DNA of 64,000 nt, taken from Isosphaera pallida ATCC 43644 (lineage in GTDB: Bacteria; Planctomycetota; Planctomycetia; Isosphaerales; Isosphaeraceae). Each line of letters starts with the position of its first letter. Positions within the stretch are counted from its first letter, which is position 1. This document shows positions 43,611-60,370 of this stretch, one piece after another. The stretch covers positions 4,864,450 through 4,928,449 of the forward strand of contig NC_014962.1 of the NCBI RefSeq assembly GCF_000186345.1. The letters run 5' to 3'. The position numbers and the translations under genes are program-made. The notes under the pieces were generated by a model. That model was not told the origin of the DNA. It saw only the letters and a list, made by a program, of their open reading frames with translations, and did not search any database.

Positions 43611-43648
43611 TGAGGTTGGGAACGGAACCCCACGGACGCGGTTTGAGG

Positions 43649-43662
43649 GTTCCACGTGAAAC
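43649..43662. other. parS-like site (degenerate)
   Basis: GTTCCACGTGAAAC, one mismatch from the 14-nt parS core GTTTCACGTGAAAC (13 of the 16 full-consensus bases), in the short gap between convergent genes. Confidence 0.5.
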
Positions 43663-43711
43663 GCGCTCCCAATCTTTCCCAATTGAGGAGCATGAACGAG
43701 TCAGGATGACT

Positions 43712-48191: not shown

Positions 48192-48555
48192 CGGGAGCCT
48201 CCGAGTCGGTTGGTTGAAGGAATGGAGAATCAGGTCGAGCCAACGCGGTCGGGTCGTGTTTGAATCGACCATATTCGATCATCCCAAGTTCCTCAACGAA
48301 TCGCCACCATTTCCCCTTCCATTTCTTCATCATGTGTTGAGAGTCGCGCAAGGTTTCACGTGAAACATGGCGCATCGGTGAAGACCAACCGAAGTCCGCT
48401 TCGAGAGCGCTTGGGAATCGCGTGAAGGACGACTCACGCCTCAACCCGCTTCATCCAGGTGGACGATGACAGCAACCTCAAACCAGTGCAAGGGTTTGGA
48501 ACCCAGCGTCGCTCTTGCAAACGGCGAGACCCACTCGCTTGCTTCGTTCGAGGGA
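48192..48555. other. Intergenic region of 364 nt with a parS-like site
   Basis: Lies between the oxidoreductase start and the stop of the GH-A-like gene. It contains a strong parS-like sequence at 48352 and presumably the oxidoreductase promoter. No other gene is apparent. Confidence 0.4.
48352..48367. other. parS-like site (15 of 16)
   Basis: GGTTTCACGTGAAACA differs from the canonical ParB-binding parS by one base at the first position. It lies between two genes. Confidence 0.8.
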
Positions 48556-50622: not shown

Positions 50623-53600
50623 TCACGGGCGGATTTCGCGGGTCTGATACCTGTCGAGATAGCGCTGATAGGCGGGGTCGCGGAGTCGTTCGGTGATCGG
50701 GTCGATGAAGGGAAATTCAGGCATTCCCTTCCAGGGCAACGGTTCGACCGTGTCACTGCCCGCTGTGAAGGGGTCAGCGTCCTTGCAGTAACCGACCGAG
50801 CGCAACACGAAGGTTCGGTTCCATCCTTTGGGCAACTCGGGCAGCGTGGTCGCGTCGAACTCCAGTTTAACTTCGTCGCCGGGACCAATCACTGCGAACT
50901 GGTCGTCGTCGCGGGCAACGAGTTCGGTGACCTCTCCAAACCGAGTCAAGCGTCCACGAAAGCTGGCGAACGGCGCAGGATCGACTTGAGCGTACTCGTA
51001 GAGCAACGGTGGTTGTCCGTCGGGCGAAACCTCGCGTAAGTAACCCCGCGCCGCCAACCAAGCCCGCATGACGGGGAGCGTGGTCGAACGATAAAGAGCG
51101 GGCTGTTCGGCGGTGGGAGCCGGTTCGGTGATCGCAAGAAACGCCTCGTCCCAGTCGCACTCCATATTGGTACGGATGCGCACAACAAACGGATGCGCAA
51201 GCTTGCTGGGGTCGAGTTCCACGCTCATGGTTCGCGGCAACCCGGCGGGATAACCAGGATAGGGTTCCAGCGTCTCCCAGGTTCCATCTGACCGTTGTTG
51301 TTCCAAAACGGGTGGCTTGAGTTCCACGCCAGCGGTAGCGGCGGCGTAATTGGTTTGCGAGTAGGGATATTCGACCCAACCATTCAGTACCAGCAGCAAC
51401 CGTCGTCCCGGTTCGTTTTCGACCCGACTCCAGGCGTCACGGACTCGGTTTCCGAAGTCGAGCGTGATGGCATGTTCTTCAGCATAGCCAATCCACTTGC
51501 CCAGCTTTTTGACGCCTCCAGCGAAGCGACGGTCGGTGGATTTCAGATGGTCCGTCACCTCCTGCCCTTGAGAGTTGACGGCCTTGGTCGGATCAATCCG
51601 AGTCCGCCATGCGCGAACCTCTCCCGTCGGCCGCGGACCTTCGGGCGCGAAGCGTTCATCCAACCCGATCGTCACCTCGGCAGGGTGGTCGATGACTTCG
51701 AGCTCGAAGTGGTCCAGGTAGGAGATCTCGTCCATCGGTTCGACCACGGCGATGCGATAAACCCCGCGGGTCGGCTTCAACTGATCGCTGCGAATCAGCA
51801 ACGCCTCGTCGCGATCGGGCTGCCCGTAAATCCCAGGCGCGACCAGATAACCCATTCCACCTCCTCCGAGGAAATCGCCTAGGCACTCGAACCGGGTTCC
51901 GTTCCACGTGAAACACACTGGACAGCTTCCCGTCTTGCGATTGGTCTCGATCAGGTTGAGCCGCTGGTTGGCAGCGACCTGGAGCTCTGACTGCAACACA
52001 CCATCTGGCCAGGTGATCTGAACCAGTTCCGCCTTCGTGGAATCGCCTAACCCCAAAACCACGGGACCAAGCGATTGACCGGTCGCACCGATAAGCGACG
52101 TGGTCTCCAACCGAAGATTGAGCTTCGGCCCCAACACTCCGAGTTTGGCTCCATAGCCGTGAGGGTTGGTCCGCATTTGGTCGAATCCCACTTTCCACCG
52201 ACCCGCGAACTCAAGCGCCAACCAGTTGAATCGATTCCCCAAGTTCTCGAACACCCTCGGCGGCTCGCCAGGACGCCAAACCAAGAGATCAGGAAGGTCG
52301 TCACCCACGAGATTGGCCGTCTCTAAAGAATCCCTCCCTTGCTCCGGCGAGGTTGAACCATCGTTGGAACGCAGCTCGTCGAGGCCCACACTGAACCCGA
52401 TCAAACGGTCACCCAGGTTTCGACCCGCCAGCGGTTGTTGGTCGGTGGGACCAATCACGTCAGGGCTGCCATTCAAGTCGATGTCGATCATTCGGACCGA
52501 ACTTAGACCACGGAGATTCGTGGGAAACTCCACGAAGTTGGGCTGACGACGGCCAGGCGTGGAATCGGTCTCGTTCCTCCAGACTCGCAACCGCCCTTCA
52601 TGATCGAGCGCGACTAGGTCGGAACGTCCGTCAGCGTCCAGGTCAAGGGCGAGCAGATGGTTGATCCTGGAAGGTCCATTGGGCAGCTCGATCGGTTCCC
52701 GGAGAAACCGTCCCAGGCGTTCGTTTCGCAGTAGGTACGGGGTTCCATCCCAGCCAGCCACAATCAGATCAAGGTCACGGTCGCTGTCGAAATCGAAGGC
52801 CGCCAGCGTTGTCGGAACTCCAGATGGCTTCAGTGCTTCCTCGAGGCCGGGCCAGCGGGAGAATGCGATCGAAAGTCCCTCCTCGGCGGGTGTCTCGGGA
52901 TGGGCGACTGCCTTAGGAGCCCAGTTGTCTTTGGGAAGGTTCCCCGGCAGCGGCGCGGGTACGCCGTCGTTGCGGAACAGGATCACCGGGGAAGGGGGGG
53001 GTTGTTCTCCCTCCCGAAAGAGGGTCTCTAATTGGGACGCCAGGGTTGGCGTCACCAAGACGAGATCGAGGTCGCCATCCTGGTCCAAATCGATCCAACG
53101 GGCGGTGAGCGCGACCTGATTCAGGTTCGCTAAACCAGCCTGAGCTGTGACATCTTCAAAGCTCTGATTGCCTAGGTTGCGCAGAAGCCGCACGCCACGA
53201 GTTCCCGTCAAGACCAGGTCGTTCCAACCATCGGCGTCGAAGTCGGCGGCAGCGGCTCCGAGGGTCACACCGTGGTCGGATCCATTGCCGCTGGGTGCCA
53301 ACGCCCTGGGTAACTCCGTGTAGCCACCATCGGGACGTTGACGGAAAAGACCGTCTCGAATCCCCTGGTCGTCTCGAATGGCGTTGGGAAGAAACAGGTC
53401 GATCAGGTCGTCGTTATCCAGATCGAATGCAACGATCGGTCGCCCGAACTGGCCGGCGATCCGTTCTGCGTTGGCAGAGTGTTGGCGAAGTTCCTCTGGT
53501 GTCGCCCAGTTTGACCCTTGGGCGAGCTCGAACTTCAGATCGGTCGCGTTCCACCGCACGGGGGCGTCGGTCTCGGCGGGTTTTGAAACGATTCCAGGTG

Positions 53601-54483
53601 GGTTGATGATCGTGGCATAAGGTCCTGCCTCGCCATAGGTCAAAGCGAACGCCTCGCCTGGTCCCTGAGGATTGCCCGCCGTTTTGGGACTCAGCTGGGC
53701 GCGGAGATTGAACATCTCCGTCCGCTTGCGAATCGCTTCGGCCTTTTGTTGAGGATCGCGGGCAGTGACCTCTTGGTTGCGGTAAGCCAGCATCAAGCGG
53801 TAAGCGGCCGACTCAAAATAAGGGTTGAGTTCGAACGCCTTCTCAAAGTAAGGCAAGATCAACTCGGGCTTGTTTTGGGCCACCGGAAAATCGGGTCGGT
53901 CAGGGTCGGGAAGAGTCGCCCCCAGCTGGTACCAGGTTGTAGCATCGTTGGGATCGAGTTCGTTGACCTTTCGAAATGCCTCGTGAGCTTGAGCCGTCTC
54001 GCCGACGTATCCCAAAATGAGGCCCCGACAGTAATAAGCGTGGGCGTTGTTGGGATCTTGGCGGATGACCTCGGCTAGCAGATCCAACTCCCTCTGGAAA
54101 TCTTGAGCGGAAGGCGATCGTCCCGCCTTGCGGGCGTCCTCCGCTTTGACACCCGTGTTGTTCAAAAGCGCGATCGCCAGATTGACTCCGCTAGGAGGCC
54201 AACCAGGAGCGATCCTCCGAACCGTTTCAAACGCTTGAGCGGCCTCGGCGTACTCGAACCGCTGCATTCGTCCCAACCCTTCGAGATGGGCTTCGACCAA
54301 GTCCTTGAATTGGTCCGGCGTCAGGTCGGAAAGGGTGGCGGCCCGCGTCTCAGGAGCGGTGGTTTGAACTCGTTCAGACTTGGGGACACTCTTGGTTTCA
54401 GGTTGGGTTCCACAACCACAACCAATCCCGATGGGTGTCATTAGCAATCCCAACCCCACCCAACGACGTATCGTGGCGCTCAT
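50623..54483 (-). CDS. Large lipoprotein with TPR, FG-GAP/VCBS and ASPIC/UnbV-like domains
   Basis: A 1,286-residue lipoprotein (signal VGLGLLMTPIGIGCGCG). Residues about 50-260 are TPR-like (YAEAAQAFETVRRIAP, NNAHAYYCRGLILGYVGETAQAHEAFRK). Then comes a beta-propeller of FG-GAP/VCBS repeats (VAFDLDNDDLIDLFLPN, AAADFDADGWNDLVLTG, IDLDQDGDLDLVLVT, FDFDSDRDLDLIVAG, LDLDADGRSDLVALD, IDLNGSPDVIGPT), whose Asp/Asn clusters fit calcium binding. An ASPIC/UnbV-like part follows (YGAKLGVLGPKLNL, LGPVVLGLGDSTKAELVQITWPDGV), then about 390 residues of a beta-rich C-terminal region with NPxCF-like CPVCFTWNGTRFECLGD. ATG 54483 begins MSATIRRWVG; SD is weak. Probably an extracellular binding protein. It has a parS-like site inside (51900). 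Confidence 0.87.
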   Translation of the reverse strand: MSATIRRWVGLGLLMTPIGIGCGCGTQPETKSVPKSERVQTTAPETRAATLSDLTPDQFKDLVEAHLEGLGRMQRFEYAEAAQAFETVRRIAPGWPPSGVNLAIALLNNTGVKAEDARKAGRSPSAQDFQRELDLLAEVIRQDPNNAHAYYCRGLILGYVGETAQAHEAFRKVNELDPNDATTWYQLGATLPDPDRPDFPVAQNKPELILPYFEKAFELNPYFESAAYRLMLAYRNQEVTARDPQQKAEAIRKRTEMFNLRAQLSPKTAGNPQGPGEAFALTYGEAGPYATIINPPGIVSKPAETDAPVRWNATDLKFELAQGSNWATPEELRQHSANAERIAGQFGRPIVAFDLDNDDLIDLFLPNAIRDDQGIRDGLFRQRPDGGYTELPRALAPSGNGSDHGVTLGAAAADFDADGWNDLVLTGTRGVRLLRNLGNQSFEDVTAQAGLANLNQVALTARWIDLDQDGDLDLVLVTPTLASQLETLFREGEQPPPSPVILFRNDGVPAPLPGNLPKDNWAPKAVAHPETPAEEGLSIAFSRWPGLEEALKPSGVPTTLAAFDFDSDRDLDLIVAGWDGTPYLLRNERLGRFLREPIELPNGPSRINHLLALDLDADGRSDLVALDHEGRLRVWRNETDSTPGRRQPNFVEFPTNLRGLSSVRMIDIDLNGSPDVIGPTDQQPLAGRNLGDRLIGFSVGLDELRSNDGSTSPEQGRDSLETANLVGDDLPDLLVWRPGEPPRVFENLGNRFNWLALEFAGRWKVGFDQMRTNPHGYGAKLGVLGPKLNLRLETTSLIGATGQSLGPVVLGLGDSTKAELVQITWPDGVLQSELQVAANQRLNLIETNRKTGSCPVCFTWNGTRFECLGDFLGGGGMGYLVAPGIYGQPDRDEALLIRSDQLKPTRGVYRIAVVEPMDEISYLDHFELEVIDHPAEVTIGLDERFAPEGPRPTGEVRAWRTRIDPTKAVNSQGQEVTDHLKSTDRRFAGGVKKLGKWIGYAEEHAITLDFGNRVRDAWSRVENEPGRRLLLVLNGWVEYPYSQTNYAAATAGVELKPPVLEQQRSDGTWETLEPYPGYPAGLPRTMSVELDPSKLAHPFVVRIRTNMECDWDEAFLAITEPAPTAEQPALYRSTTLPVMRAWLAARGYLREVSPDGQPPLLYEYAQVDPAPFASFRGRLTRFGEVTELVARDDDQFAVIGPGDEVKLEFDATTLPELPKGWNRTFVLRSVGYCKDADPFTAGSDTVEPLPWKGMPEFPFIDPITERLRDPAYQRYLDRYQTREIRP
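51900..51915. other. parS-like site inside a coding region (14 of 16)
   Basis: CGTTCCACGTGAAACA, two mismatches from canonical parS, within the large TPR/FG-GAP gene (codons for the CFTWN region). The coincidence of codon use with the consensus is possible. Confidence 0.5.
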
Positions 54484-54734
54484 GTGTGGGAGGTTCGCTG
54501 GACAACATTTGAAAGAGGGCACGGAATCATCTCCCAACTTGAAAATGAAAAAAGCGATCTTCTTCGACGTGGGATGTGATCAGCCAGACCGAACCACGTT
54601 TCACACTGTCCCACATCTCGTGGAATCGTCGTCGTGAAACAGGCTGGAGTGACGTTTCCCTTTGCGGTCAGGAACTGATCTCGAAAGCCCCGTCAGGATC
54701 GCCGGAGGACCACAACCGGCTTCAGACGGTCAAC

Positions 54735-54750
54735 CGTTTCACGTGAAACA
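54735..54750. other. parS site (15 of 16)
   Basis: CGTTTCACGTGAAACA, one mismatch from the canonical ParB-binding sequence. First of the cluster. Confidence 0.85.
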
Positions 54751-54778
54751 CGAATCGAGGCAATCCGTGACTCCCTTC

Positions 54779-54794
54779 TGTTTCACGTGAAACA
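54779..54794. other. parS site, perfect match
   Basis: TGTTTCACGTGAAACA matches the canonical bacterial parS consensus at all 16 positions. The centre is 44 nt from the previous site. Confidence 0.93.
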
Positions 54795-54820
54795 AGACCG
54801 GTCGCTTGTCATTCTTCCAC

Positions 54821-54836
54821 CGTTTCACGTGCAATC
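54821..54836. other. parS-like site (degenerate, 12 of 16)
   Basis: CGTTTCACGTGCAATC: left half intact, right half carries three changes. Spacing of 42 nt from the perfect site continues the regular phasing. Confidence 0.45.
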
Positions 54837-54872
54837 CCCATCGAGGCGTGCAGCGACAAGCTTGCGAATCCT

Positions 54873-54898
54873 CCCACCGTTTCACGTGAAACGGTGGG
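54873..54898. other. parS core in an extended 26-nt perfect palindrome
   Basis: The core GTTTCACGTGAAAC is embedded in a perfect inverted repeat whose arms also include CCCACC / GGTGGG. It is the last site of the cluster. The extended palindrome could form a cruciform or hairpin. Confidence 0.8.
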
Positions 54899-55013: not shown

Positions 55014-55991
55014 TCATCGTCGTGTGGCCCGGCGGTACGGATCAATATAGCCGGGCGGGGCGGGATCAAGCGATTCTAACATGAGGCCGCCAGGATTGAG
55101 CCGAGGCGGCGCGAACCGACCGTGACGGAGCATCTGGTGCCCCCGCCTTCGTTCGCGGGCGCGACGCAGACCGTCCAAGTCGATCGGACCCATGACGATT
55201 TTGGAGCCGGGACCGGGAGACGCCTGAGTGACGATCCGACCATCGTAATCGACGATCATGCTGCCGCCAGGCCAGGAGTAGGGGGGGTAGTGTGTCAGGC
55301 TCGCTCCTTGATTGGCTGCCACGACGTAAGCTAAATTCTCGATTGCCCGCGCTCGGTTGATCACGGTCCACCAATCCATCGGTTCGGTCGTTCCCCAAGG
55401 GTCCATGTAGGCCGAGACCCGAATTAGCACCTCGCAGCCCCGGAGCGCCATCGAACGCAGCACCTCGGGAAAGAGCCAGTCGTAACAGATCGCCACCCCC
55501 AAACGTCCAATCTCGGTCTCGACCACTGGCAAGAGGGTGGCGAGGTCGTCGTGGAACTCGGCGGGGCTGCCGTGTACCTCAAACGGAATCCAAGGGTTGA
55601 GCTTGCGGTAGGTAGCTAGCAGACCGTCGGGACCAATCAGGCAGGTGGTGTTGAAAACGACTCCGGGATGGGAGGGCGACGACTCCAGAAAACTCCCAGT
55701 CTGAATGTGGATCCGATGCCGGCGCGCTACTTGGATGTAACGGTCGGTGAACTCGTTGGGAATCGGTAAGGCAAGCTTGTCGAGGAGTTCGGCGGCACTG
55801 GGATAGATCGGGGCGGCGTGGGCGAACTCGGGGAAAACCACCAGTTTGAGATCGTCGAAGGGACCAGTGCCGACGACGGCGTGGTCAATCAATTCAGCCA
55901 ACGCGGTGAAACGCGCTGGATAGTCCGAACGGTCACGAGGGCAGGGGAGGTCGGTTTGAATCGCCGCGGCGGCGTAGCGGAGCGAACTCAT
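55014..55991 (-). CDS. Carbon-nitrogen hydrolase (nitrilase superfamily) amidase
   Basis: A 325-residue enzyme with the Glu-Lys-Cys triad: Glu in VVFPEFAHAAP, Lys in TYRKLNPWIPFE, Cys in GVAICYDWLFPEVLRSM. A second Glu (PMDWWTVINRARAIENLAYVVAANQGAS) fits the family's NRARA-x-EN motif. The exact substrate (nitrile, amide or carbamoyl) is unclear; the N-terminal AAAIQTDLPCPRD start resembles amidases of the N-carbamoyl-putrescine type. ATG 55991 (MSSLRYAAAA) puts the first beta strand near the N-terminus. The TPR gene is upstream on the same strand, 154 nt away. Confidence 0.93.
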   Translation of the reverse strand: MSSLRYAAAAIQTDLPCPRDRSDYPARFTALAELIDHAVVGTGPFDDLKLVVFPEFAHAAPIYPSAAELLDKLALPIPNEFTDRYIQVARRHRIHIQTGSFLESSPSHPGVVFNTTCLIGPDGLLATYRKLNPWIPFEVHGSPAEFHDDLATLLPVVETEIGRLGVAICYDWLFPEVLRSMALRGCEVLIRVSAYMDPWGTTEPMDWWTVINRARAIENLAYVVAANQGASLTHYPPYSWPGGSMIVDYDGRIVTQASPGPGSKIVMGPIDLDGLRRARERRRGHQMLRHGRFAPPRLNPGGLMLESLDPAPPGYIDPYRRATRR

Positions 55992-56145
55992 CGCGTGGTG
56001 GTTTCCATAGCCGAGGGATTGGAGAGAACACGAGGCGCGGGTTGAAACGCGACCTCGTCCACCAAGACAGGATGCGCCGAAGCGAGATGATCGTCGAGGA
56101 GACAAGGTCTCAACCGGCCGATCAGAATAAGGGATCGAGAGCAAG

Positions 56146-56730
56146 TCAGCGTGATGTCAGCTCCAACCCGCGTCGGATCGCCGCCCGCGTGGATGCGTCC
56201 AAGGTATCGGTCCGTGCCGCCGGTCTCAACCGGGTTAGAGCGTCTCGGGCGCGTTGGAACTCACCGCAACGGGCAAGAATGGCGGCCAGCAGCAACCACG
56301 CCGATTCATCCCGCGGATATCGTTGTAGGTGACGCTCCAGACCTGCTAGAGCATCGTTGACGACCCGCTCGGCTTTGAGATAGGTGTGAATCGATCGGGC
56401 TTGTTCGAACCAGGCCGGGTCGGTTTGAACGATCAGATGAATTTCGGCCAGCGCTTGAGCGTAGCGGCCGCGGCTCACGTCGAGAAGCGCCAGGCGTTCC
56501 CGTGCGGCTGAAGCGTAGGGATTCAGAACGAGGGCGCGCTGGTAGCGATCCCGCGCTTGAGGTTCGCGTCCAGCTCGCAAAAGCCGGTCGCCTCGCGCCA
56601 AGAGATCGGCGACCCTTTGGTCGCGCTCGGTGTGGCCTGGATTTGAGCCGTTCGCAAGACCGGAAGAGCCCCGAAGGATGGTCGAGACGATGGCTTGGGA
56701 CCCCGTCCACCCCACTAGGATCGTCGCCAT
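56146..56730 (-). CDS. TPR-repeat protein, secreted or membrane-bound
   Basis: A 194-residue protein from ATG 56730 (GTG 56769 would add 13 residues). A short hydrophobic N-terminus (MATILVGWTGSQAIVSTIL) precedes TPR units: LLARGDRLLRAGREPQARDR, YQRALVLNPYASAARERLAL, RYAQALAEIHLIVQTDPAWF, LERHLQRYPRDESAWLLLAA and REFQRARDAL-like. Helical repeats that bind other proteins. The gene starts 57 nt downstream of the kinase stop, so the two likely form an operon. Confidence 0.8.
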   Translation of the reverse strand: MATILVGWTGSQAIVSTILRGSSGLANGSNPGHTERDQRVADLLARGDRLLRAGREPQARDRYQRALVLNPYASAARERLALLDVSRGRYAQALAEIHLIVQTDPAWFEQARSIHTYLKAERVVNDALAGLERHLQRYPRDESAWLLLAAILARCGEFQRARDALTRLRPAARTDTLDASTRAAIRRGLELTSR

Positions 56731-56787
56731 GACGCAAGCGCTATGAAGGTTCGGCTTCAGGTTGCACACGACGCGCGACTCCCGAAA

Positions 56788-58446
56788 TCATCGAGGAGTG
56801 AAATCCACCCGGTTGAGTGATGGCGGGGGCGGCGGAACTTCGGAGGACCATCTTCGTGAATTCAAAATCGAAATGGTGAGAAACCCTACCACCAGCGCCA
56901 GGAGGACCCCGCCCATGACCATCACCATGACCCGCAGCTCATTGTCGTCGCGGGATCGAGCTTCGCTCGGATGGTATCCGAACATCCCATAGCTCGGTGG
57001 GGAGGGGAGCGGGGCAGGGGAGAGCGGATGGAAATCGTCCGTTTCCGCACTAAGGTCTTTGGGACGGACCTTGTGGATAGACCGGTTCCGTTTCGCGGAC
57101 CGGGTTGATCTCGACGATTTCGACGAGGCAGCTTCGGTGGACGCCCGACTTGATCGTGGACTGGGTTGGGTGTGGTTGAGGTCGGTTGCAGCCGGCGCGG
57201 ACGACGACCCACTCCGAGAGGATGAGCCGGCAAGCGATGATGAGGCGAGAGGCGTTACGGCGGGAAGCTCGTCTTCAAACCCTGGATCGTCACCGAAACT
57301 GAAAGGTTGGTTTGGTGAGGCAAACGCTGCAGCGTTGTCTGCCGATCGACTCCCTGGAACCAACTCCACTACTGTTCCCACCGAGGACGCGCCCAGATCG
57401 AACTCGGACTCGGAATCGGACGGCATTTCGGGAGGGGCAGACCGCGAAGGGGGCTTAGGGGCAACCGGGAACTCCGCCGTCGGACGCGTGGCCGAGAGGG
57501 ACCGCAACGCCTGAATGAGTTGCCGATAGGAGTCGTAACGCCGCTCGGGCGACTTGGCCATCATAGTCTTAAGGATCGCGGCGAACTCCGGCGGGACATC
57601 GGGTCGAACCTTTCGAACGTCAGGAATGTCGCCGCGAATGTGAAGGAGTACTTTTTCGGAGATCTTGTCGGCGACATAAGGCGGGGAGCCGGTCAACAGG
57701 TAGTAGAGGGTGCAACCCAGGGAGTAAATATCGCTGCGAATGGTGGCGGCGTGGCTGTCGCGGGCCTGCTCGGGGGCCATGTAGTCAATGGTGCCGATCG
57801 TGGTACCTTCGCGAGTTAACCGTTCGTCATCCAAGATGGTCCGCGCCAGTCCCAGATCGGCGAGCTTGACCTGGCCTTCGCTGGTGATCAGGAGGTTGCC
57901 GGGTTTGATGTCGCGGTGGACTAACCCAGCCTGGGCGGCGTGATCAAGCGCCTCGGCGGTCTGGATCGCCACTTCGATCACACGAGCAACCGGCATGGAA
58001 CCATGTTTTTTGACGTACCGCGAAAGATCACCGCCGTTGACGTATTCGAAGACCAGGAAGTGACGATCCTGCGCGTGGCCCACGTCGAGCAGTTCCACCA
58101 CGTTGGGATGGCTCAACGAGGCCAGGAGTCTAGCCTCGTTGAGAAAGCGTTGAAGGGTGGTGGGCTTGCGAGCGAGTTCCTTGGGCAAAATTTTGAGCGC
58201 GACGATCAGTCCAGTGGGACGATGTCGGCCCCGCGCGACCAAGCTCATCCCGCCTTTGCCGAGCAGTTCCAGCACCTCGTAGTCGCCAAGGACGGGGCGA
58301 TCGCCTGAAATCGTCCCCCCGCCGCCTAGCGAAGCAAAATCTTCGACCGCCGACATCGAACCAAGCGACGCCTCGCGGTCCTGCGGACTCGATTTGGCCG
58401 ACGCCGAAACCGAGGTGTTCGCGGAGTCTTGGGGTCGCGGGGTCAC
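56788..58446 (-). CDS. Ser/Thr protein kinase with C-terminal membrane anchor
   Basis: A 552-residue Hanks-type kinase: GKGGMSLVARGRHRPTG, VALKILPKELA, LVHRDIKPGNLLI (RD kinase, unlike the one at 43712), LADLGLARTI (DLG for DFG, as in many planctomycete kinases), GTIDYMAPEQA and SDIYSLGCTLYYLLTG. After the domain (to about residue 310) come about 200 residues of Ser/Pro-rich linker and one transmembrane helix (LRVMVMVMGGVLLALVVGFLTISIL) with a short outside tail. The Cys-poor linker is likely disordered. Start ATG 58446 (MTPRPQDSANTS). Followed by the TPR protein and amidase genes. Confidence 0.93.
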   Translation of the reverse strand: MTPRPQDSANTSVSASAKSSPQDREASLGSMSAVEDFASLGGGGTISGDRPVLGDYEVLELLGKGGMSLVARGRHRPTGLIVALKILPKELARKPTTLQRFLNEARLLASLSHPNVVELLDVGHAQDRHFLVFEYVNGGDLSRYVKKHGSMPVARVIEVAIQTAEALDHAAQAGLVHRDIKPGNLLITSEGQVKLADLGLARTILDDERLTREGTTIGTIDYMAPEQARDSHAATIRSDIYSLGCTLYYLLTGSPPYVADKISEKVLLHIRGDIPDVRKVRPDVPPEFAAILKTMMAKSPERRYDSYRQLIQALRSLSATRPTAEFPVAPKPPSRSAPPEMPSDSESEFDLGASSVGTVVELVPGSRSADNAAAFASPNQPFSFGDDPGFEDELPAVTPLASSSLAGSSSRSGSSSAPAATDLNHTQPSPRSSRASTEAASSKSSRSTRSAKRNRSIHKVRPKDLSAETDDFHPLSPAPLPSPPSYGMFGYHPSEARSRDDNELRVMVMVMGGVLLALVVGFLTISILNSRRWSSEVPPPPPSLNRVDFTPR

Positions 58447-58880: not shown

Positions 58881-59708
58881 TTACAGCCTCTGGAGATGAA
58901 GCCCGCCATCGAGAGGCAAAACCACGCCGGTGGCGTAGGGCAGGGGGGATCGAGCAAGTTGAGCGACGACTCGTCCCACATCCTCGGGCGTGCCCCAGCG
59001 GGGTATCGGCACCAGACCGTCGCGGATCCGTTGCGTGTAGAGGTCGGCCACACGCTCGGTCATGTCGGTACGAATCAGACCTGGACGCAGTTCGACCACT
59101 CGGATCGGGGAGTCGGCCAATCGAAGGGCAAAGGCTCGTGCGATGGTGGCGATGCCCGCCTTCGAGACGCAGTATTCGACCCGGTTGAGACTGACATGGT
59201 CGGCCGAGATCGAGCCGATGAAATGAATCTGAGCCGCCTCGAGCTCGGGATGAAGCGGTTGGGTCATCATCAACCGCGCCAGCCTTTGCGTGAGAAAAAA
59301 CACGCCTTTCAGGTTGGCGTTCATCACCTCGTCCCAGCTTTCCGGCGTGGTCTCCAGCACATCCGACCGAACCCTCGGGGCCATGCCAGCGTTGTTGACC
59401 AACAGATCGAGGCGTCCAAAACGAGACGCCACCTCATGGGTCACCGTTTCAACCGTGGTGAGATCGCCCGAGTCGGCGGCCACCGACCAGGCTTGGGGAG
59501 CGCCTAAGCTCAACGCCTCGGAAACCGTCTGTTGAGCGGCTTCCGAGCCGGAGCGATATGTCAAGCCAATGGCGAACCCCGCCCGAGCCAGCGCATGAAC
59601 AATGCCCCGGCCAATCCCACGCCCTCCTCCGGTCACGAGGGCGGTGGGCGGAGACGACCTGAGCGAAGGGTCCACGATCCGGCTCGAATCCTCGAAACTC
59701 ATACTCAC
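58881..59708 (-). CDS. Classical SDR family oxidoreductase
   Basis: A 275-residue classical short-chain dehydrogenase. TALVTGGGRGIGRGIVHAL (TGxxxGxG), LVNNAGMAPR (NNAG), GSISADHVSLNRVEYCVSKAG (catalytic Ser, Tyr, Lys) and VVELRPGLIRTDMT are present; the C-terminus GVVLPLDGGLHLQRL ends like 3-ketoacyl-reductase relatives. The first codon is GTG 59708 (GGGAG upstream); ATG 59702 is an alternative. Function beyond NAD(P)-dependent oxidoreduction cannot be read. Confidence 0.93.
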   Translation of the reverse strand: MSMSFEDSSRIVDPSLRSSPPTALVTGGGRGIGRGIVHALARAGFAIGLTYRSGSEAAQQTVSEALSLGAPQAWSVAADSGDLTTVETVTHEVASRFGRLDLLVNNAGMAPRVRSDVLETTPESWDEVMNANLKGVFFLTQRLARLMMTQPLHPELEAAQIHFIGSISADHVSLNRVEYCVSKAGIATIARAFALRLADSPIRVVELRPGLIRTDMTERVADLYTQRIRDGLVPIPRWGTPEDVGRVVAQLARSPLPYATGVVLPLDGGLHLQRL

Positions 59709-60038: not shown

Positions 60039-60112
60039 GCGCTCGTAGCTCAGGAGGATAGAGCGGCGGTTTCCTAAACCGCAGGTCGCAGGTTCGAATC
60101 CTGCCGGGCGCA
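60039..60112 (+). tRNA. tRNA-Arg (anticodon CCT)
   Basis: A full cloverleaf of 74 nt including the discriminator base: acceptor GCGCTCG / CGGGCGC, D arm GCTC...GAGC, anticodon stem GCGGT / ACCGC with loop TTCCTAA (anticodon CCT at 60073-60075), T arm GCAGG-TTCGAAT-CCTGC. Reads AGG codons. CCA is not encoded. Confidence 0.95.
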
Positions 60113-60220
60113 TGACTTCACTCTTGCCACGGCACAGGCGCGCCTCACGCGGCACGTTGATCAACCCCAGCTTGAACTCGTCTCTCGAAACTCGAAGAAG
60201 GTGAGATAGATCACTACCAC

Positions 60221-60294
60221 GCGCCCGTAGCTCAGCTGGATAGAGCATCGGTCTTCTAAACCGACGGTCGCAGGTTCGAATCCTGCCGGGCGTA
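60221..60294 (+). tRNA. tRNA-Arg (anticodon TCT)
   Basis: A 74-nt tRNA: acceptor GCGCCCG / CGGGCGT, D arm GCTC...GAGC, anticodon stem TCGGT / ACCGA with loop CTTCTAA (anticodon TCT), T arm GCAGG-TTCGAAT-CCTGC. Reads AGA (and AGG by wobble). CCA is not encoded. The T arm is identical to that of the upstream tRNA-Arg. Confidence 0.95.
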
Positions 60295-60370
60295 CTGATA
60301 GAGGGGTTCACGCAAATCGTGAGCGCCTGGCCTACGTCGTCCGCGTTCTTCTGCAAGATTCAGTAACGGT

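Follow-up and report, generated by a model that had tools for sequence, protein, structure and literature searches.

The seven parS sites clustered within 11.2 kb of the Isosphaera pallida chromosome probably act as its centromere, where ParB would nucleate although its gene lies 2.10 Mb away. The window (the whole 64,000-nt stretch of DNA that was analysed) corresponds to C2:4864450-4928449 of the 5,472,964-bp chromosome. One second replicon of 56,340 bp brings the genome to 5,529,304 bp in total; plasmid ISOP01 of I. pallida IS1B is likewise 56,340 bp (PMC5352709).

A single parS cluster in the genome

Six matches to the parS 16-mer TGTTTCACGTGAAACA with at most 3 mismatches were found in the window, against 0.11 expected, and no more than one match was found in any of 100 shuffles. 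A first-pass annotation of this DNA had described four parS-type sequences within 164 nt, spaced by about 44, 42 and 57 nt, and had judged the chance occurrence of even one exact 16-mer negligible. The description holds: three exact 14-bp parS cores and a degenerate fourth lie at 54735-54893, the reported spacings being correct for the cores. Three further sites (43648, 48352 and 51900), the outer two of which both carry GTTCCACGTGAAAC, stretch the cluster to 11.2 kb and make seven sites in all (Table 1). Within the four-site group, the flanking word ATCGAGGC is common to sites 1 and 3 and CCACCGTTTCACGTG to sites 3 and 4, which suggests local duplication.

The same annotation had proposed a scan of the full genome, in which all exact or 1-mismatch parS cores of the 5.5 Mb were found to fall inside the 11.2-kb cluster. 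Outside it, 2-mismatch cores were about as frequent as expected by chance (9, versus 5 for a reversed-pattern control). I. pallida thus has a single parS cluster, and its sites are not scattered or spread evenly round the genome. An origin of the sites by chance or as a degenerate repeat was ruled out by the shuffles and the reversed-pattern controls. Judged by sequence, the sites in the window are very likely parS-type elements.

Table 1. parS sites and neighbouring features in the window, with the ParA2 genes at the parS locus of two relatives (window positions, except where a contig is named)
Feature	Position	Strand	Remarks
parS-type site	43648..43663	.	GGTTCCACGTGAAACG; 3 mismatches; between convergent genes
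parS site	48352..48367	.	GGTTTCACGTGAAACA; 1 mismatch, core exact; intergenic
1304-aa gene	50623..54537	-	TPR; FG-GAP/UnbV-like by sequence reading; downstream of four-site group
parS-type site	51900..51915	.	CGTTCCACGTGAAACA; 2 mismatches; within CDS of 1304-aa gene
parS site	54735..54750	.	CGTTTCACGTGAAACA; 1 mismatch to 16-mer, core exact
parS site	54779..54794	.	TGTTTCACGTGAAACA; 16/16, 0 mismatches
Degenerate parS site	54822..54835	.	GTTTCACGTGCAAT; 2 core mismatches, one half intact
Perfect 26-bp palindrome	54873..54898		CCCACCGTTTCACGTGAAACGGTGGG; centred on parS site 54878
parS site	54878..54893	.	2 mismatches to 16-mer, 14-bp core exact; centre of 26-bp palindrome
Nitrilase/amidase-family gene	55014..56144	-	Conserved neighbour at Isosphaeraceae parS locus
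TPR protein (56146-56769) and Ser/Thr kinase (56788-58446)	56146..58446	-	Conserved neighbours at Isosphaeraceae parS locus
SDR oxidoreductase, 3-ketoacyl-ACP reductase type	58881..59708	-	Conserved neighbour at Isosphaeraceae parS locus
tRNA-Arg(CCT) and tRNA-Arg(TCT)	60039..60295	+	Conserved pair adjoining SDR and parS in relatives
ParA2 gene, G001	G001:C1:1752768-1753544		At parS locus; L294:10748 onwards
ParA2 gene, G002	G002:C282:11146-11922		At parS locus; L213:1138 onwards

A chromosomal-type ParB encoded far from its sites

The window contains neither parA nor parB, as the annotation had correctly stated. Absence of ParB from the genome had been named beforehand as refuting the parS reading; one chromosomal-type ParB is in fact encoded (315 aa, C2:1547883-1548830, 177 bits to TIGR00180), two other matches to this profile falling below the cut-off. 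By the shorter way round, the gene lies 38% of the chromosome from the parS cluster, flanked by a Gfo/Idh-type oxidoreductase and a phosphofructokinase-like gene (names read from sequence). An ARAGORN call of a tRNA-Asp inside the parB coding sequence (L052:8537-8617) is probably false.

Its alignment with solved ParB structures, those of Caulobacter (6t1f) and Thermus (1vz0) among them, extends from the N-terminal motif through the CTP-binding motifs to the HTH, and both CTP motifs (GERR and ENxQR) are present. The N-terminal motif LGxGLxxLL, the usual ParA-contact region of ParB, is kept in I. pallida and in the ParB of the parA-less genomes aligned. Caulobacter R173 and G201, which are invariant among ParBs but differ in Noc (PMC7383237), correspond to R and G in I. 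pallida ParB, with L and D at 179 and 184. Nucleoid occlusion of the Noc/NBS kind was ruled out, since the sites are parS and not TATTTCCCGGGAAATA and the four ParB residues are R, L, D and G, not Q/K/K/R; the Noc profile gave 226 bits against a cut-off of 315 bits. The branch leading to I. pallida ParB is very long in a tree of the ParBs from 35 genomes. The DnaA of I. pallida scores lowest among full-length DnaAs, so the proteins of this species may be divergent generally, and the long branch is not by itself evidence of changed function.

A single cluster, together with a chromosomal-type ParB carrying parS-reading residues, makes it very probable that the sites are genuine loading points for ParB, which is predicted with good confidence to occupy those in the window.

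The ancestral parABS locus of the Isosphaeraceae

Comparison was made across 45 Isosphaeraceae genomes (G000-G044, I. pallida being G000). The relatives have 2-5 parS sites around parA-parB, among neighbour genes matching those of the window. Their gene order, with minor variants and with short gene names that are readings of the sequences, is nitrilase - TPR - kinase - SDR - tRNA-Arg(CCT) - tRNA-Arg(TCT) - [parS] - ECF - csrA - PfpI - HDAC - [parS] - GT - NAPRT - parA - parB - HisK - tRNA-Pro - rpiA - deoC - memb - rnc - efp. A homologue of the 1304-aa gene adjoins the nitrilase gene in G001, G002, G014, G043 and G044.

The block from nitrilase to tRNA-Arg is kept in the I. pallida window at 54.9-60.3 kb. 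ECF-csrA-PfpI is found another 31 kb along, at about C2:4955.7-4957.5 kb; rnc-efp maps to 4.16 Mb and parB to 1.55 Mb. This scatter indicates that the neighbourhood has been broken up in I. pallida and that parB ended far from its sites. By gene order, the window is the ancestral parABS locus of the Isosphaeraceae, from which in I. pallida parB has moved away and the parB-linked parA has been lost. In the relatives checked parS lies mainly in the tRNA-Arg/ECF gap, in the HDAC/GT gap and by deoC; the I. pallida sites occupy other places within the same neighbourhood.

Two further observations concern these loci. The approximately 31 kb between the tRNA-Arg pair and ECF-csrA (window position 60300 to C2:4955703) has no counterpart at the parS locus in any relative examined. 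G006 has 19 GTTYCACGTGRAAC sites on 14 contigs, many of them alone on separate contigs, where the other genomes with sites have 1-7; with an assembly that is 85% complete and 5% contaminated, a real spread of parS and foreign contigs are both possible.

Recurrent loss of parA and a second ParA

A canonical parB-adjacent ParA is present in 33 of the 45 genomes, G011 included, at 72-88% identity to the G011 copy (2 of the 33 matches are partial). It was not found in G000, G001, G002, G012, G013, G014, G016, G017, G018, G021, G043 and G044, seven of which are at least 90% complete. The I. pallida genome yielded no close homologue of the Isosphaeraceae parB-linked parA, and none stands next to parB. 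In G013, G017, G021, G043 and G044, parB comes immediately after NAPRT, at the place expected for parA. G001 and G002 still have carboxy-terminal remnants of parA ahead of parB. The genera g2, g12 and g13 each include genomes with and without canonical parA, indicating that loss has been recurrent; on the ParB tree of 35 genomes, parA presence and absence needs 4 changes, at least 3 of them forced by well-supported branches. Most of the 12 genomes lacking canonical parA have retained both parB and parS.

A second ParA (ParA2), 38-43% identical to the canonical protein, occurs in at least 40 of the 45 genomes. The I. pallida copy (C2:3463886-3464662) is Soj-like by sequence, with 182 bits to 8ray and 154 bits to Thermus Soj 1wcv, and its counterparts in G001, G002, G004 and G011, at 68-70% to the I. 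pallida protein, were confirmed as the same gene. In G001 and G002, both without canonical parA, ParA2 adjoins NAPRT, where other genomes have parA-parB, and lies 5-12 kb from parS (Table 1); parB, with the parA remnants ahead of it, is elsewhere in these two genomes. In G004 and G011 ParA2 has no other parS-locus marker in its vicinity. ParA2 is also encoded alongside canonical parA in other genomes, so it may serve a different function. On balance, its position in two relatives and the motif retained in ParB point to ParA2 as the likely partner of ParB and motor for parS.

Smc and ScpA are not detected

In I. pallida, where 47 of 53 candidates were scored, the bacterial Smc profile matched nothing but coiled coils, none above 37 bits. 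Among the 45 Isosphaeraceae genomes it gave nothing at 1e-12 (best 12 candidates scored per genome); 10 of 14 control genomes exceeded the cut-off. ScpA was found in none of the 45 genomes at 0.001 and in 9 of the 14 controls. These two profiles made up the condensin search.

Function of the cluster

We lean towards a model in which the ParB-parS system of the Isosphaeraceae has lost Smc and, repeatedly, its own ParA, and is then either driven in trans by ParA2 or kept as a ParB-only organiser, with parB unlinked in I. pallida. ParB, made in trans, would load at seven parS sites (one degenerate), close as a CTP clamp, slide and spread from parS and build a partition complex, which ParA2, acting in trans, would then position. 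The complex would not load Smc-ScpAB, an activity that cannot belong to the mechanism if the absence of Smc-ScpAB is real.

Canonical parA is lost in 12 of the 45 genomes, most of which retain parB and parS; neither Smc nor ScpA was found, and parB is unlinked in I. pallida. These findings would also fit a ParB that works alone at parS, with no ParA partner and no Smc, as a nucleoid domain or in regulating nearby genes. We consider this unlikely, as the ParA-contact motif is retained in the ParB of the parA-less genomes aligned and a Soj-type ParA2 is present.

It is improbable that the cluster is a decaying relic from before parB moved, with a working centromere elsewhere or unneeded. The distance to parB, the half-lost site among the seven and the divergence of I. 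pallida ParB are what such decay might leave, but three perfect cores persist within 164 bp, one site lies in a perfect 26-bp palindrome and the genome has no other parS cluster. Moreover, the sites differ in position from those typical of relatives and so have been kept or gained, which counts against a relic.

Least probable is that the palindromes are operators of a transcription factor with a CACGTG core controlling the 1304-aa gene: four sites, one in the perfect palindrome, do lie just upstream of that gene on its strand, but three others are outside this promoter (one of them in coding sequence), the match to the parS consensus extends beyond CACGTG, and the same 14-mer clusters round parAB in relatives, where the 1304-aa gene is often absent from the stretch examined. 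ParB at parS can also affect nearby genes (PMC7022226), so the operator and parS readings are not mutually exclusive.

Relation to the replication origin

The first-pass annotation had expected the origin and parAB to be probably nearby. This is not supported: in addition to the distance to parB, dnaA, at the record start, is 554 kb (10.1%) from the parS cluster, and neither skew nor DnaA boxes revealed an origin. GC skew, raw and at four-fold sites, was computed from 5-kb samples taken round the I. pallida chromosome and from 0.48 Mb of contiguous sequence, and gave no significant origin; the best four-fold-site fit, at approximately 2.5 Mb, went from p 0.05 in the sparse sample to p 0.43 with more sequence. 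No DnaA-box cluster was found in the 1.04 Mb sampled. For G011, sampled in 40 stretches of 20 kb, skew pointed to an origin at 1.1-1.4 Mb (p 0.01 by permutation), with parS at 0.93 Mb and dnaA at 0; this was not taken as proof because TA skew disagreed and single-gene permutation ignores gene clustering. Conserved distance from the origin, compared between I. pallida and G011, rested on 26 ortholog pairs and did not decide the position.

In well-assembled relatives, the distance from dnaA to parB or parS amounts to 0.2% of the contig in G004, about 8% in G040, 11% in G031, 13% in G011, 14% in G027, 19% in G001 (parS) and 22% in G037. Either oriC is not at dnaA in the Isosphaeraceae, or else the centromere is unusually far from oriC. 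A second DnaA-like gene was also observed in I. pallida, at a distance of 114 kb from the parS cluster (G000:C2:5033518-5034573, L112; 89 bits, 450-aa frame), and in most relatives (110-205 bits).

Discussion

The parS sites themselves are an ordinary kind of element; what is unusual is that several features come together: parB is unlinked, parA has been lost repeatedly while parB-parS stayed, a spare Soj is encoded and Smc-ScpAB is undetected. Division without FtsZ is found in most planctomycete lineages. We found no description of this combination in the open literature, most subscription journals being outside its scope, and nothing relevant there on a ParA-less ParB or missing Smc in planctomycetes; few open papers name planctomycetes together with ParB and parS, and the one on the Isosphaeraceae mentions par genes for plasmids only (PMC5352709). 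ParB-parS is usually credited with two roles: ParA moves it, and it loads Smc. The Isosphaeraceae, keeping ParB and parS without detectable Smc-ScpAB and repeatedly without an operon-linked parA, offer a natural experiment on what a centromere is for, and they make takeover by a second Soj testable.

Three known arrangements invite comparison. Corynebacterium glutamicum has two ParA-family ATPases per genome, ParA and the ParA-like PldP, as do the Isosphaeraceae that keep both; ParA and PldP are both reported to meet ParB (PMC7022226), whereas in I. pallida canonical parA is lost and the ParA2-ParB partnership is a predicted one. Streptococcus pneumoniae resembles I. pallida in keeping ParB and parS without an operon-linked ParA, but there ParB brings in SMC close to the origin, with no ParA reported (PMC7022226), whereas I. 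pallida has a Soj-type ParA2 and Smc-ScpAB was not found. From the chromosomal ParABS (Soj-Spo0J-parS) of Bacillus, Caulobacter and Thermus, I. pallida differs in that parB is 2.1 Mb from the sites and does not share an operon with parA, the operon-linked parA has been lost, Smc-ScpAB is undetected and the cluster can be placed relative to dnaA only (10.1% away); with it, I. pallida shares the parS sequence, several clustered sites, the parS-reading residues of ParB and an encoded Soj-type ATPase.
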